Origin: an uncultured Bacteroidota bacterium
Lineage (GTDB): Bacteria; Bacteroidota; Bacteroidia; B-17B0; Aurantibacillaceae
Reading direction: 5' to 3'
NCBI GenBank assembly: GCA_903893815.1
Contig: CAITNS010000048.1
Location: forward strand, 1 to 64,000
DNA: 64,000 nt
Numbering within the stretch: position 1 is the first letter of the stretch; each line of letters opens with the position of its first letter. A program made the position numbers and the translations under genes. The notes under the pieces are model-generated. The model did no database searches. It saw nothing but the letters and a program-made list of their open reading frames with translations, and had not been told where the DNA came from. This document shows, piece after piece, positions 16,602 to 41,717 of the stretch.

Positions 16602-16604
16602 GTT

Positions 16605-16868: not shown

Positions 16869-16937
16869 TTCCAGTATTGCTTATTGGTCGAAATATTTTA
16901 TTGTCGTAGTTTATAATAATTTTAAAAGCAATAAACC

Positions 16938-19358: not shown

Positions 19359-22300
19359 TTGAAAAAATCGCTATTCTCCCAAATTTTTATTTTTCTCCTT
19401 TTCTTTTGGGGGTTGATACTTGTTAATACAAGTAATGCGCAAACTCATTCGTATTCCATAAAGAAAAGATTGTACACATATGCTGATGGTTTACCTGCAA
19501 GAGCAGTAAACTGCGGCGTTCAGGACAAATATGGTTTTTTATGGTTTGGAACAAGAAATGGCTTATGCAGATTTGATGGAAAAATTTTCCAAACATTTAA
19601 TCAAAATGTACATGGTTTACGTGGCAGAGAAATTACGGAACTTTACTTTGATAATAATGATGGGGTACTAATTATTTATAATCAAAAAAGTGCTAATAAT
19701 AAGGATACCTTAATGCACATTGACGTTATGAATATTAATACGCTAAAAGTAAAGCCTTTTGCAAGTTATTATCCAAATGCACCTTTTAAGGAAGGACAAA
19801 TCCATTCGGTTAAAAAGTCATTTAATAGCGAAGCAATTTACTTTTATCCAAAACCGTTTTATACTGTTTTTTTTGAATCTAAAGTGTCTATAAAATCATG
19901 GCTACTAAATAAAAGTTTAAATTTTATAAAAAAAGAAAATGCCGTTATTAAAACCGGAAAATTTAATAGCGACAAAACTGGTAACGCAATAGTTATTTCG
20001 CCGCATACATCATCTGTTGACATCACTAAAGAATCATTGCTCATATTTAACGATAGTACGATTGTTTTATATCCCGACCATTGGGCTTATTTTGTTTACA
20101 GAAACAAAAACGGCTACACCGTTTGTCAAAATAATTCAATAGGAAAAAAGCAATACTTTCAAGTAAGTTTTAATGGCGAGTTTAAAAAATTAGATTCCTT
20201 GACTAATAACTATTATCCTTTTTTATACCCTGAAAATTATATTTATAATCAGCATTTATTTTCAGAGACAGCTTTTAATATTAGCGAAAATGATATTTTA
20301 AAAATTGCATCTTCAAAAGAAAATCTTGAAGGCGGTGAAGAAAAAATAATGAGGTCTACTGTTATCTCAGCATTTAAGGATCAGTTAGAAAATTATTGGT
20401 TTTGCACTACAGAAGGAATAGTAAAAGTAGATTACAAAAAAGTAAACTTTAAAAAGGATTTTGTGCAAACGCAGTTTAAAGCATTAGCAGATTTGTCAAC
20501 CAGAGGTATTTATGCTTCAAGTGAATTGTTAATGGGATCGTTATTTGATTTTTTTGCAATTAAAAATAAAAACACAATTGAACAATTAAATTTAAAGGAG
20601 AACTTTGCTATTAAAAAAGTAAACAATGATTTTTGGTTAGGATCTTTTCGACTTCATAAATATAATGGGCTTACAAAAAAGTTGGAATATAAACTCGAAT
20701 CCAATAATCAAGAGATTTGGGCCATTGAAGAATTAAATAAAAATCAATTAGTGCTTGGTTGTACTTCCGGATTATCCATATATAATATATCCAGTAATAC
20801 TATTATAAAGGTAACATCAACAAAATTTACTATACCAAAATTAGTTTATCGCATTACAAAGATGAGTGCAAATCAATTACTAGTTATTGCTAGTAATGGC
20901 ATCTTTTTGATAAATGCTAAAGGCCAAATTTTAAATTGTTATGCGGATGTTGTTAAAGGTAATTTACCATTTGACGCCATCAACGATGTATTAGTAGATA
21001 GCGACAGTTTATTTTGGATTGCCACAGCTAACGACGGACTTTTTTCGTGGGATAAAAACAAGAATAAATTTGAGCAGTTTGGCTCCGAAAATGGATTTTT
21101 ATCGAATACAATGTACCGAATTGAGGAAGATGATTATGGTAAATTATGGATTAGTACAGATTTTGGATTAGCAAAATTTAATAAAGAAACTAAAACCGCA
21201 AAAGTATTTACAGAGGCAGATGGCATTACGCACAATGAGTTTAACCGGTCATCAAGCTTTAAAGCAAGCGATGGCAAATTATATTTTGGTGGTTTAAAAG
21301 GGATAACAAGTTTTAACCCTAAAGATTTTGCTATAGATGATATTCAAAAAAAGTATCCTTTTTTAGTTGATAAAGTGAGTCAGTACAATTTTAAATTAAA
21401 TAGGGAAGAAGACAATACCATCAATTTTAAAAAAAGTAATGCGCTGTTGTTATATGAAAATAATAATGTTAATCTGCTTATTAAACTATTAGATTTTGAA
21501 GAAGCGGGAAATTTATTTGCTTATCAAATTGAAGGACTTAATTCGGAATGGAATTTCCAGAAGGATGAATTGATTAAATTAAATAATTTACCTGCTGGAA
21601 ATTATACCCTCACGGTAAAAGCGCAATGTGTTGATGGGAGATGGAATAAAACTCAACTACACATTCCAATTGCTGTTATAAAACCTTTTTATAAATCGTG
21701 GTGGTTTATTATTAGCGTTGCCGTGCTAGCCATTTTATTAATTATTATTATTATAAATTATAGAACGCGTATTGTAAAAAGGCAAAATGATAAGTTAGAA
21801 GCCATTGTTTCTGATCGAACATCTGAATTAAAAAATTCTTTGTCCGAACAAGTAGCTTTAATGCAAGAGGTGCATCATCGGGTAAAAAATAATTTACAAT
21901 CTGTTGGTGCAATTATTCAAATGCAAATGAGGGCTACTAAAAACGAAAGCAACCAATCGGTTTTAAAAGACACCTATCGTCGATTAAACTCTATGACGAT
22001 GGTGCACGAAATGTTGTTAAATAAAGAAAAGATAGAATATATTGATGTAAATGTTTACATCAATGAAATGATAGTTAAGCTCAACGAATTATTTTTGGAC
22101 GAAGCGAGTCCTATAAAATTCAAATTAGATATTGAAGCTGTAAAGTTTAATATTAATAATTGCGTGGCTTTAGGAATGATTACATCTGAAATTATTAGTA
22201 ACGCTATTAAGTATGCCTTTCATAACATTCAATCACCTTTAATTACTATAACATTAAAGTATGTGAAAGAAGAAAAAACAATTTATTATTGTATTTCAGA

Positions 22301-22454
22301 CAATGGAATTGGCATTAACTTAGATAAAAAAAATGCAGGAATCGGCTTACGGTTGTTAGATATTTTTTCAAGACAAATTGAAGGAGAATATGAGTTAAAA
22401 AATAATCAGGGAACTAGTTATATATTTAAAATACCATTTACTAAAAATGAATAG
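19359..22454 (+). CDS. Two-component propeller sensor histidine kinase (Y_Y_Y, HisKA_2)
   Basis: The start codon is TTG at 19359; it gives a proper signal peptide (MKKSLFSQIFIFLLFFW...NAQ), and no in-frame ATG precedes the propeller. The 1031 residues comprise beta-propeller blades of the two-component regulator type ('GLPARAVNCGVQDKYGFLWFGTRNGLCRFDG', 'DDYGKLWISTDFGLAKFN'), a Y_Y_Y domain (about 690-775, 'YQIEGLNSEWN'), a membrane helix ('WWFIISVAVLAILLIIIII', about 785-805), HisKA_2 with 'QEVHHRVKNNLQ' (His839/840) and an ATPase domain ('NAIKYAF', 'DNGIGI', 'GIGLRLLD'). It should sense a periplasmic signal and phosphorylate the LytTR regulator whose start overlaps it by 8 bp. Confidence 0.93.
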   Translation: MKKSLFSQIFIFLLFFWGLILVNTSNAQTHSYSIKKRLYTYADGLPARAVNCGVQDKYGFLWFGTRNGLCRFDGKIFQTFNQNVHGLRGREITELYFDNNDGVLIIYNQKSANNKDTLMHIDVMNINTLKVKPFASYYPNAPFKEGQIHSVKKSFNSEAIYFYPKPFYTVFFESKVSIKSWLLNKSLNFIKKENAVIKTGKFNSDKTGNAIVISPHTSSVDITKESLLIFNDSTIVLYPDHWAYFVYRNKNGYTVCQNNSIGKKQYFQVSFNGEFKKLDSLTNNYYPFLYPENYIYNQHLFSETAFNISENDILKIASSKENLEGGEEKIMRSTVISAFKDQLENYWFCTTEGIVKVDYKKVNFKKDFVQTQFKALADLSTRGIYASSELLMGSLFDFFAIKNKNTIEQLNLKENFAIKKVNNDFWLGSFRLHKYNGLTKKLEYKLESNNQEIWAIEELNKNQLVLGCTSGLSIYNISSNTIIKVTSTKFTIPKLVYRITKMSANQLLVIASNGIFLINAKGQILNCYADVVKGNLPFDAINDVLVDSDSLFWIATANDGLFSWDKNKNKFEQFGSENGFLSNTMYRIEEDDYGKLWISTDFGLAKFNKETKTAKVFTEADGITHNEFNRSSSFKASDGKLYFGGLKGITSFNPKDFAIDDIQKKYPFLVDKVSQYNFKLNREEDNTINFKKSNALLLYENNNVNLLIKLLDFEEAGNLFAYQIEGLNSEWNFQKDELIKLNNLPAGNYTLTVKAQCVDGRWNKTQLHIPIAVIKPFYKSWWFIISVAVLAILLIIIIINYRTRIVKRQNDKLEAIVSDRTSELKNSLSEQVALMQEVHHRVKNNLQSVGAIIQMQMRATKNESNQSVLKDTYRRLNSMTMVHEMLLNKEKIEYIDVNVYINEMIVKLNELFLDEASPIKFKLDIEAVKFNINNCVALGMITSEIISNAIKYAFHNIQSPLITITLKYVKEEKTIYYCISDNGIGINLDKKNAGIGLRLLDIFSRQIEGEYELKNNQGTSYIFKIPFTKNE

Positions 22455-23124
22455 CAACTTAAAAATAGTAATTGTAGAGGACGAAGTTTTAATCGCAGAA
22501 TTTATGAAAGACATTCTTTTGTCTTTTAATTTTACTGAAGTGAAACTTGCGCATAATAAAAAGCAAGCCAGGGCGCTGCTTACCGATTTTTTTCCGGATG
22601 CCGTTTTGTTAGATATTAGAATGAAAGGTGAATTAGACGGCATTGTATTAGCTAACGAAATAAATGAAAAATATAAAATACCGTTTGTCTTTATTTCCGC
22701 ACATTCTGATAGAGAAATTATTGAAAAAGCCATTAACACAAAGCCCATAACCTATATTACAAAACCAATTAAAGAAGCGGATGTGTTTGCTGCAATTCAA
22801 TTAGTAAAACAAAAGCTAAAGGACGATGCCGCCCATTTTTTGCTAATAAAGAATGGTTACGAAAATATTAAACTGTTTTTTGATGATATCTTATATGTAA
22901 AAAGCGACGATAATTATATTCATATTTTTACAACGGATGATAAACATACGATTCGAAACTCACTGGAATGGTTTAAAGATAACATTAAAAGCAATTTGTT
23001 TCAACGCGCGCATCGCTCTTACATTGTAAACAAATCTAAAATAACTAAAACTAAATCTAAAAGTGTATTTATTGGAGATATCGAAATACCACTATCTAGA
23101 GGTCATCAGATAAAACTTGATTAA
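22447..23124 (+). CDS. LytTR-family response regulator
   Basis: The 225 residues comprise a receiver domain (E11/D12 pocket, phospho-acceptor D56 in 'VLLDIRMKGE', conserved Lys in 'ITKPIKEAD') and a C-terminal LytTR DNA-binding domain ('ILYVKSDDNYIHIFT', 'FQRAHRSYIVNKSKI', 'IEIPLSRGHQIKL'). The start overlaps the kinase gene by 8 bp, so the two are translationally coupled. Known LytTR regulators bind two 9-bp direct repeats about 12 bp apart. A repeat pair with exactly that spacing occurs 80 bp downstream in front of mqo and twice more within 6 kb, making those promoters likely targets. Confidence 0.93.
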   Translation: MNSNLKIVIVEDEVLIAEFMKDILLSFNFTEVKLAHNKKQARALLTDFFPDAVLLDIRMKGELDGIVLANEINEKYKIPFVFISAHSDREIIEKAINTKPITYITKPIKEADVFAAIQLVKQKLKDDAAHFLLIKNGYENIKLFFDDILYVKSDDNYIHIFTTDDKHTIRNSLEWFKDNIKSNLFQRAHRSYIVNKSKITKTKSKSVFIGDIEIPLSRGHQIKLD

Positions 23125-23204: not shown

Positions 23205-23255
23205 GTCATTCACATACAAAGTTAGGTTACTCACCCCAAAATGCTAAACAAATTG
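23205..23255 (+). promoter_or_regulatory. Direct-repeat regulatory site upstream of mqo (copy 1)
   Basis: GTCATTCAC (23205-23213) is followed 21 bp later by GTTACTCAC (23226-23234), then CCCC and, 27 bp after the second repeat, a TTG (23253). The same layout recurs at 27250 and 28896. The distance to the mqo start codon is 93 bp. This is the most diverged of the three copies. A role as an activator site for the LytTR regulator encoded just upstream is inferred. Confidence 0.7.
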
Positions 23256-23297
23256 TTATTTTATTTAAATTAGTTTTTTAAAGTATAATTCTTAAAC

Positions 23298-24722
23298 ATG
23301 AAGGAATCAAAATATAGCCATCTCAAAAAAACAGAAACCGATGCTTTTTTAATTGGTGCCGGAATCATGAGCACGACGCTTGCAACGCTTCTTGTTGAAC
23401 TATTTCCGGACTGGAAAATTCAAATAAGTGAGCGAAGAGAAAGCGGCGCCCAAGAAAGCTCTTCAAGCCTTAATAATGCTGGTACAGGGCACTCTGGCTA
23501 TTGCGAATTAAATTATACTCCCGAAGATGCAAATGGTAACATTGATATTTCTAAAGCTATTAATGTTCATAAAGCATTTTCAAAATCGGAAGAGTTTTGG
23601 CAGCACTTAATAGCTAGTGGAAAAATAAAGTCTGATATCTACACTATCTCAAAACACATCAGTTTTGTAACCGGTAAAAAAGATGTAGATTATTTGCGCA
23701 GAAGGTGGGAAACAATGGCGAAATCGGATGAATTTGCAGATTTAGAATACTACTCTACAAACGAGGATTTGTTAAAGCAAATACCATTAATGATGGAGGG
23801 CAGAAATAGTATTTACCCTAGCGCAATTACGGTGCATGATGGTTATGATATTGACTATGGTAAAATTACAAAGTATTTTATTGAGAATCTTCACCAACAT
23901 CATGTAGATGTAAACACCAATCACGAAATAGTTGATTTATATAAAATAGGCAATAAGTGGAACGTTATACAAAAAAATGTACTCACTAACGAACTAAGTA
24001 AAATTGAAACAAAATTTGTTTTTATTGGTGCAGGCGGTGCCGCTATTACTTTATTAGAAAAATCGGAAATCCCTGAAGCCAAAGGCTATGCCGGCTTTCC
24101 GGTTTCTGGCGAATGGTTAATTTGCGATAACCAAGAGGTTGTTGCAAAACATTTTTCTAAAGTATATGGTAGGCCAAGTGTGGGATCTCCTCCCATGTCA
24201 ACACCACATCTTGATTTGAGAACCATCAACGGAAAGCAATGTTTACTTTTTGGGCCGTATGCAGGCATGTCAACCAAATTTTTAAAACATGGCAGTTGGA
24301 CAGATTTTTTTAAATCAATTAGATTAAACAACATAGGTGTGTTGCTTGATGCGGGGGCTCGTAATTTAGGACTAACAAAATATTTAATGAAAGAATTATT
24401 TAAATCAAAAGCAGGAAGGTTTAATGTTTTAAAAGAATATTATCCAAATGCAAATCCAAAGGATTGGAAAACAGCTGTAGCAGGGCAGAGGGTGCAAGTG
24501 ATAAAAAGAGTGAATGGAAAAGGCGTGATTGAATTTGGCACTGAATTAGTTACTGCAAAAGACGGAAGCCTTGCTTGCTTGCTAGGCGCAAGTCCGGGAG
24601 CAGCAACTTCAGTAAAAGTGATGCTTGATGTTATAGAAACGTGTTTTACGTTGGATGCAGCTACGAAAGAAAAATTAGCGGCAATGATTCCAACTTACGG
24701 TAAAAAGGTGAATGTAAAATAG
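23298..24722 (+). CDS. mqo: Malate:quinone oxidoreductase
   Basis: The 474 residues have the Mqo signature throughout: FAD-binding 'FLIGAGIMSTTLATLL' (about 17-32), 'SGAQESSSSLNNAGTGHSG', 'VFIGAGGAAITLLEKS', 'GYAGFPVSGEWL', 'LLFGPYAGMSTKFL' and 'CLLGASPGAATSV' near the end. The length is typical. The enzyme is peripheral to the inner membrane and oxidises malate to oxaloacetate, passing electrons directly to the quinone pool in place of NAD-linked malate dehydrogenase. It lies downstream of the propeller kinase/LytTR pair and carries the repeat-type promoter shared with two surface-protein transcripts. That combination is unusual for a TCA cycle gene. Confidence 0.97.
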   Translation: MKESKYSHLKKTETDAFLIGAGIMSTTLATLLVELFPDWKIQISERRESGAQESSSSLNNAGTGHSGYCELNYTPEDANGNIDISKAINVHKAFSKSEEFWQHLIASGKIKSDIYTISKHISFVTGKKDVDYLRRRWETMAKSDEFADLEYYSTNEDLLKQIPLMMEGRNSIYPSAITVHDGYDIDYGKITKYFIENLHQHHVDVNTNHEIVDLYKIGNKWNVIQKNVLTNELSKIETKFVFIGAGGAAITLLEKSEIPEAKGYAGFPVSGEWLICDNQEVVAKHFSKVYGRPSVGSPPMSTPHLDLRTINGKQCLLFGPYAGMSTKFLKHGSWTDFFKSIRLNNIGVLLDAGARNLGLTKYLMKELFKSKAGRFNVLKEYYPNANPKDWKTAVAGQRVQVIKRVNGKGVIEFGTELVTAKDGSLACLLGASPGAATSVKVMLDVIETCFTLDAATKEKLAAMIPTYGKKVNVK

Positions 24723-24737
24723 TTGTTTTCCTTAACT

Positions 24738-24798
24738 GCTTCGTTGTAATGACGATGCTTTAAAAACGTTGCGTCATTGCGATGAGGGACGAAGAAGC
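24738..24798. repeat. REP-like inverted repeat
   Basis: GCTTCGTTGTAATGACG (24738-24754) faces CGTCATTGCGATGAGGG...ACGAAGAAGC (24772-24798), giving an imperfect stem. The right arm contains the 'GTCATTGCGA..GACGAAG..GCAATC' type motif that I know as a dispersed intergenic element in Bacteroidota and other phyla. It lies 16 bp after the mqo stop and could end its transcript. Confidence 0.6.
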
Positions 24799-24819
24799 AA
24801 TCTTGCCCATATCATGTCT

Positions 24820-25512
24820 AATCATAATAATCTGTGTTATCTGCGTTCTATTAAAATGATGAAACACCGCAACAAGTTTGGAATGAAAGAAACATCCTTA
24901 TTTAGTCATGCTGAACTTGATTCAGCATCTAAGTGTTTTACTTTTAATTGATATTCCTAATCCTTTCTGATCATAATAATCAGTGTTATCTGCGTTCCAT
25001 TAAAATCATGAAACTCCGCATCAAGTTCGAATAATCGATATCCCTAATCCTTTTTAATCATAATAATCAGCGTTATCTGCGTTCTATTAAAATGATGAAA
25101 CACCTCATCAAGTGCGGAATGGTAGAAACATCCTAAGTTAGTCATGCTGAACTTGATTCAGCATCTTAGTGTTTTACTTTCAATTGATATCCCTAATCAT
25201 TTCTAATCATAATAATCTGCGTTATCTGCGTTCCATTAAAATCATGAAACTCCGCATCAAGTTCGAATAATCGATATCCCTAATCCTTTTTAATCATAAT
25301 AATCAGTGTTATCTGCGTTCCATTAAAATCATGAAACACCGCAACAATTTTGGAATGGTAGAAACATTCTTAGTTAGTCATGCTGATACCGATAGCTATC
25401 GGTATGATTCAGCATCTTAGTGTTTTACGTTCAATTGATATCCCAAATCAGGTCTAATAATAATAATCTGTGGTATCTGCGTTCTATTAAAATGATGAAA
25501 CAATGCATAAAA
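24820..25512. repeat. 236-bp higher-order tandem repeat array (about 3 copies)
   Basis: The AATCATAATAATC start recurs at 24820, 25056 and 25292, exactly 236 bp apart, and the hairpin marker TCATG-CTGA recurs at 24906, 25142 and 25378, also exactly 236 bp apart. Each full unit holds two half-units containing ATCTGCGTTCyATTAAAATsATG, so six such cores are present (near 24838, 24986, 25074, 25222, 25310 and 25472). It also holds one TGCTGAA/TTCAGCA hairpin. In the third unit the hairpin loop is replaced by a longer palindrome centred on GATAGCTATC. The third unit is cut short. No coding role is seen; the 60-codon ORF inside is a by-product. The array fills most of the 796-bp mqo-glutamate synthase gap. 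Confidence 0.85.
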
Positions 25513-25518
25513 ACAGCC

Positions 25519-27120
25519 TTAACTATATTTTATAGCACTATCAAATGTATCTGCGCTACTTTGCATTAAATCAAATTCCCAACCTTGCGGATAGGGCGCT
25601 TCTAATAATGCACCTTTTAATACATAAGGATACATTTCGGCATAGGTTTGAATTTGATTAGCACTTACGCGTCTGTAAATATGCGAGCGGTGCAAATTAT
25701 CAGGATGCTCAATGCCGGCTGCCGACATTAATTCTACTGCTGCTTTCACGGTTTCGTGTTGAAAGTTTGCAACTCGTACTTTTTTTAAATCAACATCTAA
25801 TCCTTTATATAAATTTGGGTTTTGCGTGGCCACGCCTGTGGGGCAAGTATTTGTATTACACTCTAATGCTTGTATACAACCTAACGATAGCATCATGGAT
25901 CTTGCAGCACTACACATATCAGCGCCAAGCGAGAAATTTTTTACTAAATCAAATCCGGTATGCACTTTACCTGAAGCAATTATTTTAATATGTTTTTTTA
26001 AACCAAATCCGTTTAGTGCATCGTAAACAAACGCTAAACCTTCTCGCAATGGCATACCAACCGAATTACTAAATTCTAACGGAGCTGCACCAGTTCCGCC
26101 TTCTCCACCATCTACGGTAATAAAATCAGGCATAATTTTAGTTTGAATCATGGCTTTGCAAATGGCAATAAATTGACTTTTTTGCCCAATGCATAATTTA
26201 AAACCAATAGGTTTTCCGCCGCTTAAATCTCTTAATTGTTTTATAAAAGCAAGGAGTTCTAGTGGTGTACCAAATGCTTTATGATAGGAAGGCGAAAGCA
26301 CATCTTTTCCTTTTTCTACTAAACGAATTTTGGCAATCTCATCGGTAACTTTTGATGCTGGTAAAATGCCGCCATGCCCGGGTTTTGCACCTTGCGATAA
26401 TTTTATTTCAATCATTTTTACATTTGGCAAAACAGCGCGCTCCGCAAAGGCTGCTCCATTAAAAGTGCCATCTTGGTTTCTACAACCAAAATAGCCTGTT
26501 CCAATTTGCCAAATAACATCACCCTCAGGCAACAAATGGTAAGGACTCAAACCGCCCTCTCCGGTATTATGCGCAAAGCCACCAAGTTTAGCGCCGGCGT
26601 TTAATGCCATTATTGCATTTTTACTTAACGAACCAAAACTCATTGCCGAAATATTAAAAATACTTGCTGCATAAGGTTGCTTGCAATCGGGGCCGCCAAC
26701 TGTAACTCTTGGGTCGTGCACGCCTTTCTCTAAAGGTAAAGGTGATATAGAATGGTTTAGCCATTCGTAGCCTGTTTCATAAACATTTAATTGTGTACCA
26801 AAGGGTGTAGAGTCTGTTGCTTTTTTAGAACGTTGATAAATAACATTTCTGCTTAAGCGGTTAAATGGCGCACCATCGGTATCCGATTCAATAAAATACT
26901 GATATATTTTTGGACGCATCCACTCGGCCCACCAACGCATACGGCCCACCACCGGAAAATTACTGATTAAGCTATGCTTGGTTTGCATCATATCTTTTAT
27001 TCCTAGCAAACTAATAGGAATAATAATAACAAAGGCCCATAAAAAATTAGGATAAAAAATACTCATCGTGCCAACGCATAAGGTTGAGGCAATACATAGG
27101 TAAATAAATGTTTTTCTCAT
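25519..27120 (-). CDS. FMN-binding glutamate synthase family protein (GltB2-like), membrane-anchored
   Basis: The 533 residues start with two hydrophobic segments (about 4-38), which suggest a membrane anchor. The core is the GltB2/FMN-binding synthase domain: 'NISAMSFGSLSKNAIMALNAGAKLGGFAHNTGEGGLS' (about 150-190), 'KPGHGGILPASKV', 'DFITVDGGEGGTGAAPLEF' and 'ARSMMLSLGCIQALECNTNTCPTGVATQ', which holds the Cys cluster of this family. Such stand-alone proteins are common in Bacteroidota. They are related to the ammonia-transferring half of glutamate synthase, but the true reaction is not established. It is monocistronic, on the opposite strand to its neighbours. Confidence 0.92.
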   Translation of the reverse strand: MRKTFIYLCIASTLCVGTMSIFYPNFLWAFVIIIPISLLGIKDMMQTKHSLISNFPVVGRMRWWAEWMRPKIYQYFIESDTDGAPFNRLSRNVIYQRSKKATDSTPFGTQLNVYETGYEWLNHSISPLPLEKGVHDPRVTVGGPDCKQPYAASIFNISAMSFGSLSKNAIMALNAGAKLGGFAHNTGEGGLSPYHLLPEGDVIWQIGTGYFGCRNQDGTFNGAAFAERAVLPNVKMIEIKLSQGAKPGHGGILPASKVTDEIAKIRLVEKGKDVLSPSYHKAFGTPLELLAFIKQLRDLSGGKPIGFKLCIGQKSQFIAICKAMIQTKIMPDFITVDGGEGGTGAAPLEFSNSVGMPLREGLAFVYDALNGFGLKKHIKIIASGKVHTGFDLVKNFSLGADMCSAARSMMLSLGCIQALECNTNTCPTGVATQNPNLYKGLDVDLKKVRVANFQHETVKAAVELMSAAGIEHPDNLHRSHIYRRVSANQIQTYAEMYPYVLKGALLEAPYPQGWEFDLMQSSADTFDSAIKYS

Positions 27121-27249
27121 GGTGTTTGTTATTTTAAAAATATAAGTAAATGTAATCTTATATTTTTTACTTCAAAAAAACAAATTAAAGTAGGACACTA
27201 ATTTTCTGATCAAAAAAATTAAGTTGCGCTAGTTTTTTTAAAAAATGAT

Positions 27250-27300
27250 GTCATTCACATACAAACTAAGGTCATTCACCCCAAAATATAAAAGCTATTG
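27250..27300 (+). promoter_or_regulatory. Direct-repeat regulatory site (copy 2)
   Basis: Two perfect GTCATTCAC copies at 27250-27258 and 27271-27279 (21-bp pitch) are followed by a TTG 27 bp after the second (27298). The flanks are identical to copy 3 for about 45 bp. The site lies 99 bp before the ATG at 27349. A TTG-initiated reading of the gene at 27298 would start inside this element, so that start is rejected. Confidence 0.75.
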
Positions 27301-27348
27301 TTATTTAATGTACATTCATTTTTTATACAAAATTTAAATCTTAAATAT

Positions 27349-27933
27349 ATGAATAATAAAATTTTATTTTTTTTAATGAATGGAATAATAGGAAGATGGT
27401 TCTTTATTTTTCTAAATGCAATTACAGTGTTTTTTAGTTTTTATTGCGTTAAATATATTGTTTACTCAATAATGGATCATTTGGAAAACTCCCATAAAGA
27501 AACGCCTAGTTTTTTGAGCTCTATGTTACATCAAATAATGCATAACACCCCACACATTGAAGCCAACGGCCTTGATAAGGTAAACATTACCATTAACAGT
27601 GTTGGAGGAGTATTAATCTCACTTGGCGTATTAATGGAATCGAGAGAAACAATTGTTAAAATGACTAAAACAAAAATAACACCTTTGCAAGAACATCTTA
27701 ATGCAGTGTCTGAATATTGCGGTATGGGGCTTTTGCTAATTGGGTTATTTATCGAAATATTTACAGTTATTATTGAGGTGCCAAACGACCTTATTAATAC
27801 AGTTGGTATTGAAAATTATTTATATTCAGCATGTGTATTTTTTATTGCGCTTGCTGCCATCATTGAAATAGCGTTTATAAAAGAGTTTATTAAAACCTAT
27901 TTTAATAAAAGTTTAAATAATAACATAGATTAG
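27349..27933 (+). CDS. Hypothetical integral membrane protein (194 aa)
   Basis: The start chosen is the ATG at 27349 (MNNKILFFLM); an upstream TTG at 27298 belongs to the conserved promoter element. The protein has about four hydrophobic helices: residues 14-35 ('WFFIFLNAITVFFSFYCV'), about 75-95 ('NITINSVGGVLISLGVLM'), 118-140 ('GMGLLLIGLFIEIFTVII') and 155-175 ('YSACVFFIALAAIIEIAFI'). Between the first two is a loop with several His residues (H-L-E-N-S-H, L-H-Q-I-M-H-N). No family is recognised. It is followed at 35 bp by a predicted outer-membrane protein with which it probably forms an operon. Confidence 0.75.
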   Translation: MNNKILFFLMNGIIGRWFFIFLNAITVFFSFYCVKYIVYSIMDHLENSHKETPSFLSSMLHQIMHNTPHIEANGLDKVNITINSVGGVLISLGVLMESRETIVKMTKTKITPLQEHLNAVSEYCGMGLLLIGLFIEIFTVIIEVPNDLINTVGIENYLYSACVFFIALAAIIEIAFIKEFIKTYFNKSLNNNID

Positions 27934-27968
27934 TTTTTTAGGGACATTAATATAACCTCTAAAAAACG

Positions 27969-28865
27969 ATGTCTAATAAAAGAATATTAAAAACATATTT
28001 GGCATTATGTTTTTGTGTTTTTACTTTAAATGTTTTTCCTCAAAAAGTTACAAATAGTATCCATAAAAAAAACGAGTTTAGTAAACCTACATTAGACTCT
28101 TTAGTTTTAAAAACAGATTCTATTCGTTCAAACTTATCTTCATTTGAAGTTGGAATAAATGGTCAGCCACAAGTAGTTTATTGGGGACGAACATTTGGTT
28201 TAAAACAAAATGGCTTAGACCTTGCACTATTATTTACTTCAAAAAAAGGAGTTTTTATTTACACCACATTTTATTATTGGAGCATGGAGGCTACGCCAAA
28301 TACTATTGCTTTTGGCGATATTGGAATTGGATACGAAAAGGAGTTTAATAAAAATATTTACGCAAGTATAAGCTACGAAAAATGGCTAACCTTTAATGGC
28401 GAAGATTATGTAAACAAAGCACTCAATAATGCCATTACTTTACAAACCTCTTTTGATTTTAATTGGTTTAATTTTTCAGCTATTGCTTATAATATGTTTG
28501 GCATATATAATGTGCTTGAAAATGATTTTTTAATTAATAAAAAAATACTGCTTCATACATTTTCTAAAAAATGCGTACTATTTATTAAACCTGAAATTAG
28601 CAGTGTGTTTGCAAACAAAAACTTTTTACCAATTTATGGCGACTTTCCGCACACCTATGATAATCGCACAAATTATAAGTTGATTGATATAGAAACCAAT
28701 TTGCCGGTTAGGCTTTTACTAAACAATGCATACATAGAACCCGCTTTTCATTATGCATTTCCTGTTAATCAAGGTAACGAAAACTTAAAACCTTTTTTTT
28801 ATTTTACGTTTAAGCTGGCGGTTAAATTATATGTTAATCAAAAACTGCCAAAAACCCCTTTTTAA
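27969..28865 (+). CDS. Predicted outer-membrane beta-barrel protein, function unknown
   Basis: The 298 residues include a signal peptide (about 1-25, ending 'NVFPQ'). From residue 60 on there are alternating polar/aromatic strands rich in Tyr, Phe, Asn and Gly ('GVFIYTTFYYWSM', 'IGIGYEKEFNKNIYASISYEKWL', 'FKLAVKLYV'), and the C-terminal region is strand-like. These features suggest a small beta-barrel of 8-12 strands. I recognise no family. It shares a transcript with the membrane protein upstream and so falls under the repeat-type promoter. Confidence 0.7.
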   Translation: MSNKRILKTYLALCFCVFTLNVFPQKVTNSIHKKNEFSKPTLDSLVLKTDSIRSNLSSFEVGINGQPQVVYWGRTFGLKQNGLDLALLFTSKKGVFIYTTFYYWSMEATPNTIAFGDIGIGYEKEFNKNIYASISYEKWLTFNGEDYVNKALNNAITLQTSFDFNWFNFSAIAYNMFGIYNVLENDFLINKKILLHTFSKKCVLFIKPEISSVFANKNFLPIYGDFPHTYDNRTNYKLIDIETNLPVRLLLNNAYIEPAFHYAFPVNQGNENLKPFFYFTFKLAVKLYVNQKLPKTPF

Positions 28866-28895
28866 TTTTTTTAAGTGCTTTATAAAAATAATGAT

Positions 28896-28946
28896 GTCAT
28901 TCACATACAAACTAAGGTCATTCACCCCAAAATATAGAACCTATTG
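28896..28946 (+). promoter_or_regulatory. Direct-repeat regulatory site upstream of the giant T9SS protein (copy 3)
   Basis: Perfect GTCATTCAC copies lie at 28896-28904 and 28917-28925 (21-bp pitch). A TTG is 27 bp after the second repeat (28944), followed by the same TTG-N15-TAGTTTTT stretch as copy 1. The distance to the start codon is 95 bp. It is almost identical to copy 2. Confidence 0.75.
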
Positions 28947-28990: not shown

Positions 28991-31900
28991 ATGATGCATA
29001 AAATTATACCTTCAAAGATGAAAAATTCAACTACAAAATTACTAGCCGCCTGTAAACTAAAAACAGCATTTTTTATTTTAGTATTGGCACTTGTTTCTAA
29101 AAACATTTTAGCCGATCCTATATACCCAACATCATGGTCTTACGATCCTTGTACTGGTAATATAACTATTTCATATTTACATTCGAATGTTTGGGGTTAT
29201 TGTGAGGATGATTATTTGTCAAGCGGAACTTTATCTTACAAAAATATTAGTGGCGTCAATGGAGGCTGGACTGTTTTTCATACTGGTGGTGGTACTTATG
29301 GTAGCAGTAATATGGCAACAAATAGTGCAGTTAGTGGTATGGATGGCACAACATATTCTTATGATGCGAGTGGCAACGAACAATATCGTAATAAAGTTAC
29401 TTTAACTGGCAGAAATAGTGACATGAAATATCCAATAGAGCTTAAGTTTGATTATGCATGGAATAATTGGTGTGGTCCGGATCAAACAGATTATGGTACA
29501 CATACTGCTCCTTTAATATACTACCAAACCATCGAAAAACCAACTAATTTAACTGCATCTAACGATGAGTGTGGTAAGGTTATTTTAGAGTGGGAAAACC
29601 CATTGCAAACATGGGAAATAACTACGAGTTGTACCAATCAATATTATGAATACGAAATTTACAAAAACAACAATTATCTTACCACAGTGCCTAGCAGTGC
29701 AGTAAGCTATACAGATAATTCTGTTGCAAATAACACTACCTATAATTATAAAATAAGAACTAAACTAAAAACAAATAATAATAGCGCTACAGGCTTTAAT
29801 ATTTATAGTTATTATTCATCCATAGCTAGCGGAGGCCCTCTGCCATCACCTTCCGCCCCAACAAACTTTAGCGCCTCCAATGATTTGTGTAATGGCAAGG
29901 TTGAGTTAAGGTGGGATTATAATTATAGTAATCCACAAGATTTTCTTTTAAGTAGGTCCTTGACTATAGCTGGCACTTATACTACCTTAGCTACTATAAT
30001 TGCCAATGACCGTTATTATTCAGATAATACCGGAAGAGGAACAACCTATTACTATAAGTTAGTTGCAAGAAACGCTTGTAATAGTGAATCGGGGATAGGG
30101 CAAGCAAATGGCTTTTCGCCGGTAGATCCGCCCGCAGCTACAAATTTAAACATGGTAGTTGATGGTATAAACAATCAACTGATTTTAAACTGGAGTGATA
30201 ATTCAACTAACGAAACAAAATTTCAAGTTGAACGCCAAGATGATTTAGGAAACACGGTGTTTTTTGATGTGAACCCAAATACAACTAGCTATACTGATAA
30301 TGGTGTGGCAGCTTGCCGAAGTTACAAATATTATGTAAAAGTATTTTCCGACTGTGTTTTAAGTGGCTTACGCTCATCAACCTTTGTAACTGGTATTTTA
30401 CCGCCCCCTAATTTAAATACTACTTTTGATGCAACTAAAAAGTTAACTGCCTCAAAAGGTTATTTTGGAAACAGAGTAGAGCTTAGCTGGAGTAATAATA
30501 ATGGTATTAATGTTGATTTATTTAAAATTTACCGTAAGGAATTAAATTCGGTAAACGATTCGGTGCAAATTGCATCCTTACCAGGTGTAAGTGCTTTTTA
30601 CATTGATAATACCTGCGATGCGCGTGTGTTTTATAGATACACCATTGTGGGAATAAAAAATTGTTTAAGTACCGAAATTTTAACAAATATATCTTCTGAT
30701 ATTGGCTTTAGAAGTCCTGCCGGCATAGTGAGCGGCCATATTGAATATACAGGTGGCGTAGCAGTGGGTGGCGCAAAAGTATTGGTACAACAAAATGGTG
30801 CATTAACAGGCAATTCGTTATACTTTATTCCGGGCTCAAGTTTAACGATTATTGATAATGCAAAATTAGAACCCGGTAATGAACTGCGATTAGAGTTTTG
30901 GCATAAACCTTTGTCTGTTACAACAACAGGAACAGTATCAATTGTTAAAAAAGCAAATGCCTTTGAATTTAGTTGTACGGCAACAAATTATGAGGCAATA
31001 ATTTATGCGGGAGGTGTGGCAAAAACATTAAGTATGCCTTCAAGTTCATTAGCAGTTGGTCAATGGAGCCATGTGTCGATGGTTTATAATGGAGCGGTGT
31101 TTAAATTATTTGCTAACGGCGTGCTAACTGCGTCAGTTTCTGCTACCGGAACCATTGACGATAATTCAAATAATTTAGTTATTGGAAATGCATCATCTAT
31201 TTTCTTAATGGATGAATTTCGTTTAATTGGAAAAGCTGCTACTGATTCGGTTATATTCGTAGAACAAAACAGAATTTTAAATGGCAACGAATCTGACTTT
31301 AAATGTAACTTACATTTTGATGAAGGGATGGGCAACTATGCGTATGATGTATCAAAAGTAGTAAACACCTTTAATGCCAATCATGCTGTTATGTCGGGGT
31401 CTGTTGTTGCAAGTTCTGATATTCCAAGCAATGCTCAGTTAGGTTATTTTGGAGTAACAGATGCCTTAGGTAATTATAATGTAACCGGTATTCGGTATGC
31501 TGGCTCAGGCGAAAACTTTAACATTGTTCCTTCTATTGCTACCCATTCATTTTCTCCAAACTCCAGAGTGGTTTATGTGGGCGATGCGTCTTATGTTTAT
31601 AATAACCAAGATTTTATAGATAATTCCTCTTTTTCGTTTACCGGTGAATTGCGCTATAAAAATCCTAATGGAAGCCCATCTTGCCCTGTACCAGGCGCTA
31701 CAGTTAAAATAGATGGTTTAGCAGTGGTAAAAAATGGTGCACAGGTATTAACCGATGCCACTGGATCTTTTTCAATTAGCGTGCCAATTGGTAACCACTA
31801 TGTGACGGTTGAAAAGTATGGCCACACTATGCAAGCCGGACGTTATCCTCCACTCTCAACTGGTATTACGCATGATTTTCAGGAGCCAGTTAATTCGGTG

Positions 31901-34900
31901 CAATTTATTGATAGTACTAAATTAAAATTAGTTGGTCGTGTTGTGGGTGGCACGGTTGAAGCTAACAAAGCACCTGGCATGGGCCGTTCTAAAAACAACA
32001 TTGGGAGTGCTAAAATATTTATAAAATCACAAGGTGTAGCTTGTTACAGAGATACTGTAATTACCGATAGCATTACTGGCGAATATGAGTTTAACGCACC
32101 GCCTTTAATTTATGAAATAGAAAATGCTTACGTCATCACTAATTCAGTAACCATTAATAAAACCAAATTATCAAATACTAATTCATTAATTGATTTAACT
32201 AATTCGTTTTTAAAAACAACCGTTATTGATACTTTATTTGATAGTAATGGTGGAGTTTTAGATATTGACTCTATAAAATACAATAAACGTTTGGATATGG
32301 TTTATCGTTCAGATCCAAACATTGATATGACCATGTTGGATGGCTCAAAATTTATTGGAGACGATTCGTTAAAAGTGGGTGCTACAAAAATAAGCATCAA
32401 GCCAATCGCCGGTAACATCGGAACTTATGGAAACTATGGTTGGGGACCATTAAACTGGCCGGTTTTTACACAAAACAAAACCTATAAAGCAAAAATAACG
32501 GCTAACGAATTATATACAAATGCTGACATTTCAACAGCCCCAGATAAAGACACTGTTTTATTAAGTGGTACTATTTTAGTAACTAACGATTTAGTAGATG
32601 GTATTGATCCAAATGCTGCCTTTAGTTTTCAAAACGGGGTTGGTACCTATTCGTTTGTATGCGGTTCTCCAAATATTGCAGCAACCACACCAGCTTCTAA
32701 TTTAGATTATACAAAAAATATTCAAGTAGTGGTTGTTCCCGACGGAGCAGCCTCAGTGCCATGGACACCAAATACGACAAATACAGCCGCTAATCCATTT
32801 TATCATGCTTTAGTAATAGGTAAGCGAATTACAGGAACAGGTATCTCCACACAAGGTCCCGAAAAAGTAGATTTTATTTTACGTGACCCTCCGGGTTCGG
32901 GTAGTTCTTCTAAATGGACATCCGGCAGTACAATCACAAAATCCACCTCATTAAGTAATGGAGATGGAAGTGATAAAGGTGTTTCGGTAGATATTTTATT
33001 TGGAAATAAATCCTTGATTGGTATAGGTGTTGCAACTGCAGTTGAACTTGAAAACACACTTTCGTTGGGATTAAGCACTAATATTAGTTCAAGTTCAGAT
33101 TCATCACTTACCGAGGTGATTACTTCTGCCAATTCAGTCGCAACGCGTGATGATGCGGATTATGTGGGTGCAGATGCTGATATTTTTATCGGACGTTCTC
33201 GTAATTGGTTAGTGGGTCCAACGGCTAATATTGAGTTAGCAGATGCGCAACAATGTCCTACATGTTTCGGACCAATATTGACTGTAGGAGGAGACCTTAA
33301 ACGGTTAGCATTAAAACTTGGTTACGCAGTAGCACCTGATAATGTACGGACTCGTTTTTCTTATACGCAAGAAGAAATTGAAAACACCGTGATTCCTCAG
33401 TTAGAAGCAATCAGAAATACCTTATTAATAAATAGTCCAGGTAAATATACATACACCCTTTCTCCAACAGATCCAAGGTTTGCTTCTAATAACGATGATC
33501 CATTGTGGGGTGCCTCTAAAACTTCAAGCACACCGGCGGTTTATGATCCAGCGGATAGTACTGGAAGTTCTTATACATTTAGAGGGTATTCTAATTTGGT
33601 AAATAAAGACACGGTTAGGATTTTAAATACTCAAATCGCTTTATGGAAGCAAGCCCTAGCACAAAATGAACGAGAAAAATTAGCCTGCGTCAATAATACT
33701 GGAGGCGTGTTAATTGATAATTTTACTCTAGGTTCTGCTATTGTAAACAACGTGTATCAAGCCGATAATGAAACAACTATAACAAGCGATTGGGAATTAC
33801 AAATTAATGAAGATATTGCAGGAGTGCTGGGTGGATCTGTTGCTGGAGCGGGAGTGCTTGTAAAACCTAGTCTTTCTTTTCATCAAACCTCAGGAGGTTC
33901 AACTAGCAATAGCACTAACTTAACTAATACCTTTGATTATACATTAACGGATGGAGATCCGGGCGATATCATGAGTATTGATGTGTATAAATCTCCGGAA
34001 GGAACTGGCAATATTTTTGTGACACGCGGTGGGCAAACTATGTGTCCATACGAAGATGCTGTGGTTTGTCATTACTATAATCCTGCCAATCCAAATGGCT
34101 ACATTGGTTCACATACTTTTAATGCAACTGGTTTTGCAACTATTGCGAATGCAACAGTTCAAAGAGAGATGCCAAACATTGCCATTACACCTTCCAATCA
34201 GTTTAACATACCATCTAACCAAGCAGCGGTTTATCAGTTGGTATTAACTAATCAAAGTCCGTTAACGATAAATAATAATATTGATTTACAGATTCGAATA
34301 GCTAGTCAAAGTAATCCGAATGGTGCAGTCTTAAAAATTGATGGGCAAAATGCGAACACGATACTTAATATACCTAGTGGTGGATCTGTAGTGAAAACAT
34401 TAACCATTGAGCGTGGTCCCATAGAAATAAACTATGATAGTTTAATGGTAATTTTTAGTTCGGCTTGTAGCACTGATATAGCTGATACAGCTTACGTGAC
34501 TGTACATTTTATTCCAACTTGTACCGATTTATCAATTACAGCTCCAGTAAATAATTTTGTAATTAATAAAAGCAATAACGACATCAGTAATATTGTTATG
34601 GAAGATTATAATTATAATTACGGCTCTGTTGCAAACACAACACAGGTTTCAACTGGAACTTATACATACATTGCTACAGCTACTAATACACTCTCTGGTG
34701 CTACTACCACAGCAGTAGCTACAGGAACTAATTATGCTAGTGTGCCTGTTGCTGCGCACCCTAACTATGGTTTTGAAAAAATCGGCTTTGAATATAAACC
34801 ATCAAATTCAAGCGCATGGTTACAAATTCAAGATTTTTATGTAAGCCCAACAGCTGCGCAAGCCGCAGGTACAAGCACGCTATATACAATTCCAAACGGG

Positions 34901-37900
34901 CAAGTATATACGCCGTATACCTGGACTGTAACACCAAGCAATTATCCTGATGGCAATTACGAAATTCGCGCAAAATCATTTTGTTATAATAAAGACGGAA
35001 GTTATGCAACGGTTTATTCTCCAGTATTAGCAGGTGTTATGGATCGTGTAAACCCAGCACCATTTGGCACACCAACACCGGGTGATGGTATTTTAGATCC
35101 TAACGATGATATCTCTATTCAATTTAACGAACCCATAGATTTAAGTAGTTTATCTACCCTAAACTTTGATATTAGAGGCGTTTTAAATGGCAGCACTATT
35201 CGCCATGCCGAGAGTTTAAACTTTGATGGTGTAGCAGATTATGCTGAGGTAACTGGTGGAGCTAGTTTACAAAAACGGAGTTTTACTGTAGAGTTTTGGG
35301 CTAAATTAAACGCGGTAGGTATTAACCAAACCGTTATAAGTCAAGGAACAGATCCAGTACAAAAAATGACGATCGGCTTTGATAATACAAACAAATTAAA
35401 ATTCACTTTAGGCAACCAAACCGCCACGTCAACATTTACAGTTCCAACACCAACCAACTGGCACCATTATGCCATTGTGTATGATTATGCAAATACGGAC
35501 GCTATTTTATATGTAGATGGAACATTAGCTGGGACAAATAATAGTTTCTTTATTGACTATACAGGTTCTGGTAAATTAGCTTTTGGTAAAACATTGCCAA
35601 CTAATACTAATTTCTTAAATGGTAATTTACAAGAAGTAAGACTATGGAATGATGTAAGAACAACTACCGAAATACTTATTACCATGAACAAAGTATTAAG
35701 CCGCAATCAATCTGGCTTAATGTATAATTGGAAAATGGATGAAGCAGATGGAGTAGTTTCAAACGATGATATCAGAAGTAGAAATGCCGATATTTATGGA
35801 GCCACTTGGCAAGTAAATCCAAATGGGTATGCTGCACAATTTGATGGTGTTGATGATAACGTGCAAGTATCTGCCGGCAACATTACCATTACTAAAGAAA
35901 TGGACTTTACCTTAGAATTTTGGTTTAACTCCACACAAAGCGGAGCAGCCACCTTATTTGCAAATGGCAAAGGAGATGGAGTAGGAGCAGATTCGTTAGA
36001 TTCATGGAACATACAAAAAGATGCAAGCGGTATGATACATGTGTATCATAAAGGGATAGATTTTGTTGCTACTAATACCAATAACTTTGATGGAAATTGG
36101 CATCATTTTGCTTTAATCATGAACCGTTCGGGTAATTTATCCTCTTACATAGATGGTAATTTACAAAACTCAGTGCAAGGTTTAGCGTTTAATAATTTAT
36201 CAGGAGCTTACTTATATTTAGGTGCCCGTGCTTATCAAACAGGAACAATTACAAATTATGATAATCATTTTGATGGTAAAATAGATGAGTTTAGATTGTG
36301 GAATACTGCCCGCAAAGCAGAGCAATTAAAACGCGACAAGCAAAACAGATTATTAGGAGATGAATACGGTTTGCAAGCATTTTTACCATTTGAGAATTAT
36401 GCTACAGTGATGGGTACACCATCCTTAACACCTACATTTAATAATCAATCTGTAAATACCTTAACCGTTAGTGCGCAAAATGGAGTTGTTACAACAAACC
36501 AAACGCCAACCATCAAATTACCTCGTCCTGTTCAGGCAATTAATTATACGTGGTTATTAAATAACGATAAAATTATTTTAACGCCAACAACAGCGCCCGA
36601 GTTATTAGAAAATGTAACCTTGGATGTAACAGTAAAAGATGCGTATGACTTGCATGCTAACAAAATGCAATCTCCAAAAACATGGATTGCTTATGTAAAT
36701 AAAAACCAAGTGAAATGGCAGGACGACATGTTTGATTTTGAAAAAACAGTTGATAGCGTCATAACTTTTACGGCGCCAATCATCAATACAGGTGGTGCCT
36801 TAAAAGCATTTACAATTGATGGTTTACCAAGTTGGATGACAGCTAATATCACGAGTGGCGTTATTGCTCCAAACAGTGTTCAAAATGTTGTATTTACAAT
36901 TCCTGCCGGAGGAACCATTGGAGATTTTAGTGCAGATGTTAGTGTAACTACTGATTTTAATTATGCGGAGATTTTGCAAATTAATTTAAAAGTAAAAGGA
37001 GTAAGTCCAACATGGGTTGTAAATCCTGCAAACTTCCAATATTCGATGAATATTTTTGGGCAACTAAAAATTGATAATGTAATTGCTACAAACTTAGAAA
37101 ACAAGATTGCAGCGTTTAGTAATGGTGTTATTTGTGGCGTTGCTAATTTACAATACTTGCCAGCGTATGATAGATATGAGGTTTTCTTGAATGTATATAG
37201 TAATTCAATTACAGGCGACTCTATTAACTTTAATATTTATGATGCAGCAAGCGGATTAACCTTTGTAAAAGTGACTCCTAATTTGATGTTTGTAGAAAAC
37301 GACGTAATTGGAACAGTTACAAACCCTATTACATTTGTAGCTAATACCGAAATTGAAATTAAAATACCATTGAACAATGGCTGGACGTGGTTTTCGTTAC
37401 CACTGAGATCAACTAAGTTAGCAACTAGTAATTTATTAATGAGTAACTTAAATTCAACTACAGGCGATGTTGTATTAAGCAATTCTAGTTTTGATCAGTA
37501 TGATTCAGGCTTGAGTTGGTTAGGAAATATTTCTCAAGGAGCAGGATTTTTTAATAATCAATCTTATAAAATAAAATCAGCTAACACAGATACGCTAGTG
37601 CATATTGGAACACGTATTTCTCCGGATTCATCCATTGCAACAATTAATGTTCAAGCTGGTTGGAATTGGATTGGTTATGTTTCTACAAAAAACACAAGCA
37701 TTTCTGAGGCCTTAGGAAACTATAATGCTGCAACTGGCGATTTAATTAAGAGTCAGTATGAGTTTGCGTATTATGATAACTTAATGGGTTGGACAGGAAG
37801 TTTAACGAACATGAAACCTGCTATGGGATACATGCTTAAGTCAGCCAGTGCAAGTACATTTAATTATCCTTTATCTACCTACATAGGAAGAATGACTAAT

Positions 37901-40817: not shown

Positions 40818-41717
40818 ATGAAGAACCTATTATATATTTTATTTATTATTACAACACTACAAGCAAAATCGCAAGTGTTATCTTATGATTTTTATTCGTT
40901 TAAGCTTAACAACATGTTTAATGTTAATCCTGCTTATACAGGAAGAGAAGAAGGCTTGAATATTATTTTAAGCGCACAAACTCAAAACAGAGGCGTAGCA
41001 TTTGCTAATAAAAATTATATGTTTGGTATGCACTCAAAAATATCTAAAAAACAAGCCTTAGGAACAAGAATCATATCTGACACACGTGGTGCCTTTCAGT
41101 TATTAAAAGCGGATTTATCTTATTCGTATTTAGCAAAAATTTCGGATGACATGAAATTTACATTAGGATTATCAGCAGGTTTATTAAAAAATAGTCTTTT
41201 AATAAACCGTATCGATAATTATCAGTCATTAGATCAATCAGATCCAACCTTAACAAAATCGTATTATAATACAAATCAGTTTGCTGCTGGTGTCGGGTTT
41301 TTATATAATTACAAAGGGTTAGATGTTAGTTTTTCAATGCCCCATATAATTGCAACAAGTCAGCCAATAAATAGTCATATTAACACCGCCGTATTTTATA
41401 CCATCAATGCAGGCGAAGATTTTAAAATTACTCCATGGTTGTGCTATCAAAACATGCCTATCACAAAAAACGTAGGGTCGTTATTTGTAAAGGGAATGTA
41501 TAAAGATGCTATTTGGGTACAAGGTGGTTATCAAACCAATAGAACGTTTTGTGCAATGTTTGGTGTTAATGTAGAGAATTTAAGTATCAGCTATGGTTAT
41601 AAATCAAGTAATAGTCAATTTAAAACAATTACCTCTGCATCACACGAAATAACCTTTGCTTTTAAAATTACTGAAACTCCTGCTATTTTAAAACGTTGGT
41701 TTTTGCCCCGAATGTAG
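40818..41717 (+). CDS. PorP/SprF-family T9SS outer-membrane protein
   Basis: The 299 residues carry the family hallmarks: a signal peptide (ending 'QAKSQ'), 'FNVNPAYTGREEGLNI' near residue 35, a barrel of beta strands with 'LSYSYLAKISDDMKFTLGLSAGL', 'AAGVGFLYNYKGLDVSFSMPHI', and 'WVQGGYQTNRTFCAMFGVNV'. PorP/SprF paralogues typically sit next to genes for CHU_C-ending cargo and are thought to help export or anchor that one cargo. This matches the 20-bp spacing behind the cadherin/CHU_C gene. It is likely part of the same transcript and dedicated to it. Confidence 0.95.
   Translation: MKNLLYILFIITTLQAKSQVLSYDFYSFKLNNMFNVNPAYTGREEGLNIILSAQTQNRGVAFANKNYMFGMHSKISKKQALGTRIISDTRGAFQLLKADLSYSYLAKISDDMKFTLGLSAGLLKNSLLINRIDNYQSLDQSDPTLTKSYYNTNQFAAGVGFLYNYKGLDVSFSMPHIIATSQPINSHINTAVFYTINAGEDFKITPWLCYQNMPITKNVGSLFVKGMYKDAIWVQGGYQTNRTFCAMFGVNVENLSISYGYKSSNSQFKTITSASHEITFAFKITETPAILKRWFLPRM

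Follow-up and report, generated by a model that had tools for sequence, protein, structure and literature searches.

A predicted asymmetric LytTR operator ahead of mqo and a giant T9SS surface-protein operon in an uncultured Bacteroidota bacterium

Genes and predicted operators at the locus

The DNA analysed here (the window) is a stretch of 64,000 nucleotides (nt), positions 1 to 64,000 of the forward strand of contig CAITNS010000048.1 (GenBank assembly GCA_903893815.1), from an uncultured Bacteroidota bacterium of the Aurantibacillaceae. It carries the genes of a sensor histidine kinase and a LytTR response regulator, which overlap by 8 base pairs (bp), and three direct-repeat sites that precede, respectively, the malate:quinone oxidoreductase gene mqo, a pair of genes for membrane or exported proteins, and an operon headed by the gene of a giant surface protein of the type IX secretion system (T9SS) (Table 1). 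It is likely that the kinase-regulator pair would switch on all three targets through these predicted sites.

The pair has the makeup of a two-component system: the regulator joins a receiver domain with its phospho-acceptor to a LytTR domain, and the adjoining gene encodes a membrane histidine kinase. By hydropathy the kinase has a signal-like hydrophobic N-terminus and a single internal membrane span near residue 776; an HHRVKNN stretch is also present. In the regulator D56, D12 and K106 are intact and FQRAHRS lies within the LytTR domain. D12, D56, K106, F185, H189, R190 and S191 are invariant across 8 aligned regulator orthologs, and R187 is variable. Comparison of the regulator by sequence with solved structures matched receiver domains (among the best 60 of 155 matches), and a plasmid search gave 231 records with a regulator relative, every one below 60% identity.

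All three sites lie on the plus strand and have a 21-bp pitch. The sequence reads GTCATTCAC/GTTACTCAC at 23205/23226 and GTCATTCAC twice each at 27250/27271 and 28896/28917, as the initial annotation of this DNA had described. Its spacings were also confirmed: counted from the first repeat, the ATG lies at 93, 99 and 95 bp for sites 1, 2 and 3, and the regulator stop codon ends at 23124, 80 bp ahead of site 1. The repeats of 9 nt with a 12-nt spacer, ahead of three genes, have the format of LytTR sites. At site 1 a −7 box, TAAATTAG, is found near +62, with the ATG at +93. For the 194-amino-acid (aa) protein the ATG 99 bp from site 2 is preferred, and the TTG start at 27298 given in the list of open reading frames is unlikely. 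Sites 2 and 3 have about 47 bp of uninterrupted identity, counted by eye (about 45 in the initial annotation).

The sites appear to be restricted to this locus. The pattern GTYAYTCAC-N12-GTYAYTCAC with up to 3 mismatches matches the window at exactly these three places, so that the initial statement of no further copy in the window stands; shuffled sequences gave a mean of 0.29 matches, and 3 were reached in 1 of 100 shuffles. Genome-wide, a scan that the initial annotation had proposed, the degenerate pattern has 3 exact matches in 3,694,075 bases, all at the locus. The same 3 are returned by a longer pattern of 33 nt when up to 3 mismatches are allowed. A position-weighted model (R2, see below) finds 3 matches in the whole genome at E ≤ 1.2e-8, the next having E = 0.17. 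On the minus strand no R2 match is present beside the start of the Glu_synthase-domain gene. There is also no R2 site at 19172-19359, ahead of the kinase-regulator operon, and 19362 has a partial match at chance level (E 0.97). Thus autoregulation, which is suggested in other genomes, is unsupported in the window.

Table 1. Coordinates of genes and predicted sites at the locus (positions in the window)
Feature	Coordinates	Strand	Characteristics
Sensor histidine kinase	19359..22454	+	Reg_prop propeller, Y_Y_Y sensor, HisKA_2/HATPase_c (Pfam)
LytTR response regulator	22447..23124	+	Pfam Response_reg 3.1e-21, LytTR 5.2e-17
Site 1 (predicted)	23205..23242	+	GTCATTCACATACAAA-N5-GTTACTCACCCCAAAAT; precedes mqo
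mqo, malate:quinone oxidoreductase	23298..24722	+	Pfam Mqo; sole copy found in genome
Glu_synthase-domain protein	25519..27120	-	no site faces it
Site 2 (predicted)	27250..27287	+	precedes the membrane/possible barrel pair; −7 box TACATTCA
194-aa protein, several hydrophobic spans	27349..27933	+	no Pfam match above cut-off
298-aa probably exported protein, unknown family	27969..28865	+	hydrophobic N-terminal stretch
Site 3 (predicted)	28896..28933	+	precedes giant gene; −7 box TACATTAG; ATG at +95
Giant 3190-aa surface protein	28991..38563	+	Laminin_G_3 domains, T9SS C-terminal sorting domain (Pfam)
Cadherin-domain protein, T9SS type B (CHU_C) sorting domain	38632..40797	+	starts 68 bp after giant gene
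PorP/SprF-family T9SS membrane protein	40818..41717	+	domain/family match
SpoIIE-domain (PP2C-type) phosphatase	41724..43523	+	closes apparent operon; 6-bp gap to preceding gene

Structure of the operator and its promoter

The sites of the window and of related genomes were compared in an alignment of 41 sites (43 compared, less a near-identical pair from relative G015; genomes, contigs and loci are given below by G, C and L numbers). The predicted operator is an asymmetric composite of TTCACATACAAA, a 5-bp gap and GnnnTTCACMMCA; its distances to a TAnnTTTG-like −7 box and to the start codon vary little. Information is found in TTCACATACAAA (positions 5-16), G22, TTCAC (26-30), C33 and A34, with C13 and C33 present in 41 of 41 sites. 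The half-sites differ consistently behind TTCAC, where ATACAAA follows in the first and MMCA in the second; thus the site has a direction. Paired 9-bp repeats, the unit originally put forward, are indeed present, but the unit that is conserved is longer and asymmetric.

Also informative is a T-A-n-n-T-T-n-G box around positions 63-70. TAnnTT occurs at 58-75 in 38 of the 43 sites, with a mean of 13.9 and a maximum of 24 in shuffles. In Bacteroides and Flavobacterium the −7 consensus is reported to be TAnnTTTG (PMC2483708, PMC7366714), and across the genome of Flavobacterium johnsoniae no −33 motif was found (PMC7366714). The TTG located 27 bp after the start of the second repeat, to which the initial annotation drew attention, is found in all three window sites but is not a conserved feature, being present in only 7 of 43 sites. 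It was rejected as a −33 element, as a TTG lies 17-23 bp upstream of TAnnTT in only 2 of the 38 sites that have the box. A sigma-70 promoter scan showed no excess (27 matches compared with a shuffle mean of 31.4). If the box is the −7 element, the second repeat would end about 10 bp above the would-be −33 element, as is reported for many LytTR repeats (PMC6193735).

The site and the regulator in close relatives

Some match to the regulator is present in 149 of the 150 genomes searched. The closest relatives are in G015 (98% identical), G010 (77%), G014 (76%), G004 (71%) and G019 (58%), followed by G016 (56%), G007 (56%), G035 (55%) and G053 (53%). A 30-nt pattern with up to 2 mismatches, applied without regard to the regulator, has 8 matches in 19 same-genus relatives; 6 of these lie no more than about 5 kb from the LytTR ortholog, and the remaining two (G005:C40 and G014:C16) are without the ACAAA context. 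Outside the genus the same plain pattern gives mostly noise, as the reversed pattern also matches often (150 genomes). With a local scan added to the pattern search, a total of 15 sites in 8 genomes was reached, including the three of the window, and the site adjoins a regulator ortholog (56-98% identical) in seven genomes. A survey of related genomes had been suggested with the initial annotation, and it shows that the site accompanies the regulator ortholog through rearrangements.

Gene orders were compared in six genomes, those of the window, G015, G014, G004, G010 and G016. G010 and G016 display kinase, regulator, giant, cadherin and SprF genes without other genes in between; in G015 and G014 mqo and the Glu_synthase gene lie between regulator and giant gene, and G004 has the order of the window. 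Thus the surface operon is the constant partner, and sensor kinase, LytTR regulator, site and giant T9SS protein, in that order, form the core of the layout. Wherever the genes are present at the locus, a site precedes them; this holds for mqo in all four genomes that have it there, for the membrane pair in both of its genomes and for the giant gene in all six. The counterpart of site 1 is kept before mqo in G015, G014 and G004, a diverged site is found in G004 at the place equivalent to site 2, and the giant gene is preceded by a site in G015, G014, G004, G010 and G016 as well. In G016 there is also a site before the kinase. The genes behind the G007 and G019 sites differ, having LamG domains and a T9SS tail, respectively. 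The ATG is 86-104 bp from the first repeat in 13 of the 15 sites, with the exception of the G014 giant gene (223 bp) and the G016 kinase (259 bp).

Between regulator and mqo the site and the −7 box are conserved across four genomes, and most of the remaining DNA there has diverged. A search of ten genomes found mqo as a single copy in G000, G015, G014 and G004, always at the locus; no match was found in G003, G010, G016 and G019 (99, 99, 93 and 76% complete), and G005 and G007 have a 48-50% identical relative elsewhere, on contigs without an R2 match. By these comparisons mqo is a probable lineage-specific addition with its own conserved site. The initial proposal of a regulon with three targets holds in that each target has a site, but only the giant surface operon is constant, mqo and the membrane pair being lineage-restricted.

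Exchange between promoters may have contributed to these differences in G015, where the stretch that was fetched contains no match to the membrane pair. The site of its giant gene has upstream DNA that matches the window upstream of site 2 and downstream DNA that matches the window behind site 3. This is the arrangement that recombination between sites 2 and 3 would leave, and since the membrane pair is present in G004, a loss in G015 would be the simplest reading. In G014 the giant gene, by eye, seems to have been placed behind a former membrane-pair promoter.

A discord in identity was observed nearby. In RNase R and its flank (window positions 16524-19224) the DNA identity is 92% to G019 (L140, G019:C418) and 83% to G015, and the order is reversed for the regulator (58% to G019, 98% to G015). 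An exchange of the kinase-regulator-surface cassette is possible, as is a binning artefact.

A wider family of sites in Bacteroidia

For a wider search a model was made from 14 sites (R1) and a broader one from 24 sites (R2), with a column-reversed form of R2 (R3) as control; these were run against 87 genomes of the family and 395 of the class, two sets that overlap. Variant sites picked by eye in the sequences behind 22 other LytTR genes served as training data only. An automatic 8-of-9 direct-repeat search behind 30 LytTR genes gave the 21-bp pitch at 2 loci, no excess over other pitches (18 bp in 3, 27 bp in 2). A LytTR profile was built from the 16 of 30 regulator loci with a cleanly found gene. 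There are 78 distinct R2 places, including the three of the window, of which 71 were fetched (G087:C8, G382:C28, G013:C8 and G079:C14 were left out); L137, a match to R1 only, was left out of the locus survey.

In the family, R2 gave 38 matches and R3 none at E ≤ 1e-4 (52 and 10 at E ≤ 0.01); in the class the numbers were 14 and 1, and 40 and 11, respectively. The 38 family matches comprise 20 R2 training sites, 5 further sites of the locus and its orthologs, and 13 others. Twelve of these 13 precede surface genes, and one precedes the kinase of a kinase-LytTR pair. Ten of the 12 surface genes carry a T9SS sorting domain; the other two are a G007:C89 gene that is cut by the contig end and has SprB/SBBP repeats, and a G050 gene that encodes a partial LamG domain and stops close to the end of its contig. 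In 3 of the 13 the distance to the start codon is greater (154-227 bp). A kinase or LytTR gene is near 6 of the 13, and 7 show none in the fetched stretch, some being on short contigs; thus the regulon is not always local. Among the 71 sites in fetched relatives, 25 follow a LytTR gene of the same strand at a distance of −1 to 164 bp, and 12 of these are outside the R2 training set. Outside the family there are three non-training matches at E ≤ 1e-4 (G406, G326 and G176). Those of G406 and G326 are at most 17 bp from a LytTR stop and are followed by large surface proteins, with a gene for a 163-aa protein between in G406. Class matches weaker than E 0.003 are mostly inside genes or without a fitting gene; one of these weaker matches, in G434 (E 0.0074), is located 2 bp behind a LytTR gene.

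Thirty downstream genes were scanned for domains, with training loci included and with kinases, mqo, giant orthologs and sites inside or far from genes left out, and the following are raw counts without a background rate. Por_Secre_tail or CHU_C is present in 22 of the 30. Four more are cut by the contig end and have LamG or SprB/SBBP repeats (L071, L131, L202, L212), two have LamG and no sorting domain, with a stop about 106-109 bp before the contig end (L200, L231), and two have neither (L221, L198). Laminin_G_3 is above cut-off in 19 of the 30. The next gene after the site is a kinase in 8 cases (G016, G013, G018, G026, G167, G007, G076, G012). Variant sites are found directly after more distant LytTR genes, mostly before LamG/T9SS genes, in other genera and in some other Bacteroidia families.

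At L221 (G045:C4) a LytTR gene and site are followed by two phage tail collar-domain proteins and then by an SprB-repeat/T9SS protein. As for G035, two of its three sites (L133, L134, L141) precede T9SS-tailed genes, and a dispersed regulon is possible there.

Other features of the window

The 298-aa protein has no Pfam or NCBIfam match; it is possibly a barrel, a fold that is not established by its structure model (predicted local distance difference test score, pLDDT, 28.6). The SpoIIE-domain phosphatase (41724-43523) matches the biofilm regulator SiaA, though below the cut-off. The DNA that separates mqo from the Glu_synthase gene includes a tandem array at 24819-25501, in which a 236-bp unit that itself contains an 87-bp unit is repeated about 2.8 times. 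A second two-component pair at 13773-16430 consists of a LuxR-type response regulator (13773-14447) and a TPR histidine kinase.

Proposed mechanism and alternatives

In the mechanism proposed here, the kinase would sense a periplasmic signal and phosphorylate the LytTR regulator, which may then bind the asymmetric direct repeat as a pair. Located just upstream of a TAnnTTTG-type −7 box without a recognisable −33 element, the bound regulator would recruit RNA polymerase. The giant T9SS operon (giant, cadherin/CHU_C, SprF-like and SpoIIE-type phosphatase genes) would be switched on in this way, and the membrane pair and mqo through the two additional sites. Ancestrally the target was probably the surface operon; mqo and the membrane pair may have been added, or lost, in some lineages. 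From the arrangement of genes and sites we infer regulator binding, activation by the phosphorylated regulator, the signal and co-expression. The local LytTR regulon of the initial annotation holds up well as a prediction, in that the site is exclusive to the locus, tracks the ortholog, keeps its distance to the start codon and recurs beside other LytTR genes; its idea of one sensor for malate respiration and a surface programme fits the predicted sites.

Several observations weigh against this mechanism or its wider form. The genome has many relatives of the LytTR regulator (19 among the matches listed; 35 candidates), and therefore another of them could read the sites. The G176 site precedes a pseudouridine synthase gene, and the stretch fetched around it contains no LytTR gene; moreover, in G363, G136 and G144 a site behind a LytTR gene is followed by no recognised surface gene. 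In G035 the LytTR ortholog (55%) has no site on its contig, and three sites are on other contigs. Many training sites were chosen for their adjoining LytTR genes, a bias that the non-training counts avoid only in part. The missing −33 motif is weak evidence, given that the genome-wide result for F. johnsoniae was likewise negative.

That one of the other LytTR paralogs, or the LuxR-type regulator at 13773-14447 with its TPR kinase nearby, reads the sites is improbable: the site tracks the LytTR ortholog through rearrangements, also in genomes without mqo, and sites are found directly behind other LytTR genes too. A slightly better chance, though still a small one, is given to repression, whereby the regulator would bind and the kinase signal would turn the surface operon and mqo off or derepress them. 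The sequence does not fix the sign, and LytTR-type repressors such as PlnD are known; however, the site precedes the −7 box by a nearly constant distance, at the usual place of an activator, and other LytTR systems likewise have repeats upstream of −35 (PMC6193735, PMC4227749). A role for the repeats outside regulation, as a small dispersed element or as a sequence for recombination, is very improbable. The roughly 47 identical bases common to sites 2 and 3, and the resemblance of G015 to a deletion by recombination between them, speak for such an element, but the genome has just three copies, all before genes and in the same orientation, with the −7 box and the start codon at near-fixed distances across genera. 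Activation by the adjoining kinase-regulator pair is the preferred explanation.

Whether the locus represents a widespread Bacteroidia module is evenly balanced in our estimation. In such a module kinase-LytTR pairs, each with one conserved asymmetric operator, would be dedicated to the switching of T9SS-secreted lectin-like (LamG) surface proteins, and the operator-promoter cassette would be copied and recombined, drawing unrelated genes such as mqo into a surface programme or dropping them from it.

Significance and comparison with known systems

To our knowledge, how Bacteroidota choose the giant surface proteins that they display is largely unknown. The operator model is explicit, with little variation in the distances to −7 box and start codon, and it predicts the regulator for surface genes directly behind a LytTR pair. 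It also appears that a respiratory enzyme has joined a surface-protein regulon by gaining the same kind of promoter. Neither the operator nor a link from LytTR to T9SS cargo was found in the literature searched, including the available portions of PMC7440613, PMC5395568, PMC10057207 and PMC10197871 (subscription papers mostly, and bioRxiv preprints wholly, were outside this search). The site format and the protein family are already known; what that literature did not yield is this sequence, its asymmetric form and a connection with T9SS/LamG cargo.

LytTR sites are paired repeats of 9-11 nt with an 11-13 nt spacer, upstream of target promoters (PMC4847170). The YpdA/YpdB (LytS/LytTR) system of Escherichia coli is alike in having a kinase and a LytTR regulator; YpdB has a single target promoter, yhjX, with a direct repeat of GGCATTTCAT at a 21-bp pitch and half-sites of unequal affinity (PMC4847170). 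YpdB-like half-sites reading GCATTTCA are found in several relatives of the window locus. Unlike in YpdAB, the halves of the window sites differ in a conserved way (ATACAAA vs MMCA), the sensor is a propeller kinase, and the predicted targets are T9SS surface proteins and mqo. LytS-type kinases are multi-span membrane kinases, and the window kinase is of a different kind from the LytS of YpdAB/BtsSR-type systems, with a propeller/Y_Y_Y sensor, HisKA_2 and one internal span.

AgrA of Staphylococcus aureus is also a LytTR regulator with direct repeats, and its FxRxHxS-type motif is found in the window regulator as well. Its repeat sequence differs from the window site, and the phylum, promoter type and targets are others. 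The AgrA repeats are upstream of a promoter with suboptimal core spacing (PMC4227749). The LytTR regulatory systems (LRS; HdrRM/BrsRM) resemble the window locus in their paired repeats with 12-bp spacing, but they consist of a LytTR protein and a membrane protein. The membrane partner acts as an inhibitor of the LytTR protein. The window locus is placed outside the LRS by its kinase and receiver-LytTR regulator. In most LRS repeats the spacing is 12 bp, and a position 10 bp upstream of −35 is strongly favoured (PMC6193735). PorX/PorY/SigP of Porphyromonas gingivalis is alike in that two-component control is tied to T9SS (PMC4800418). However, that system regulates T9SS component genes, whereas the window module is predicted to act on individual cargo proteins.

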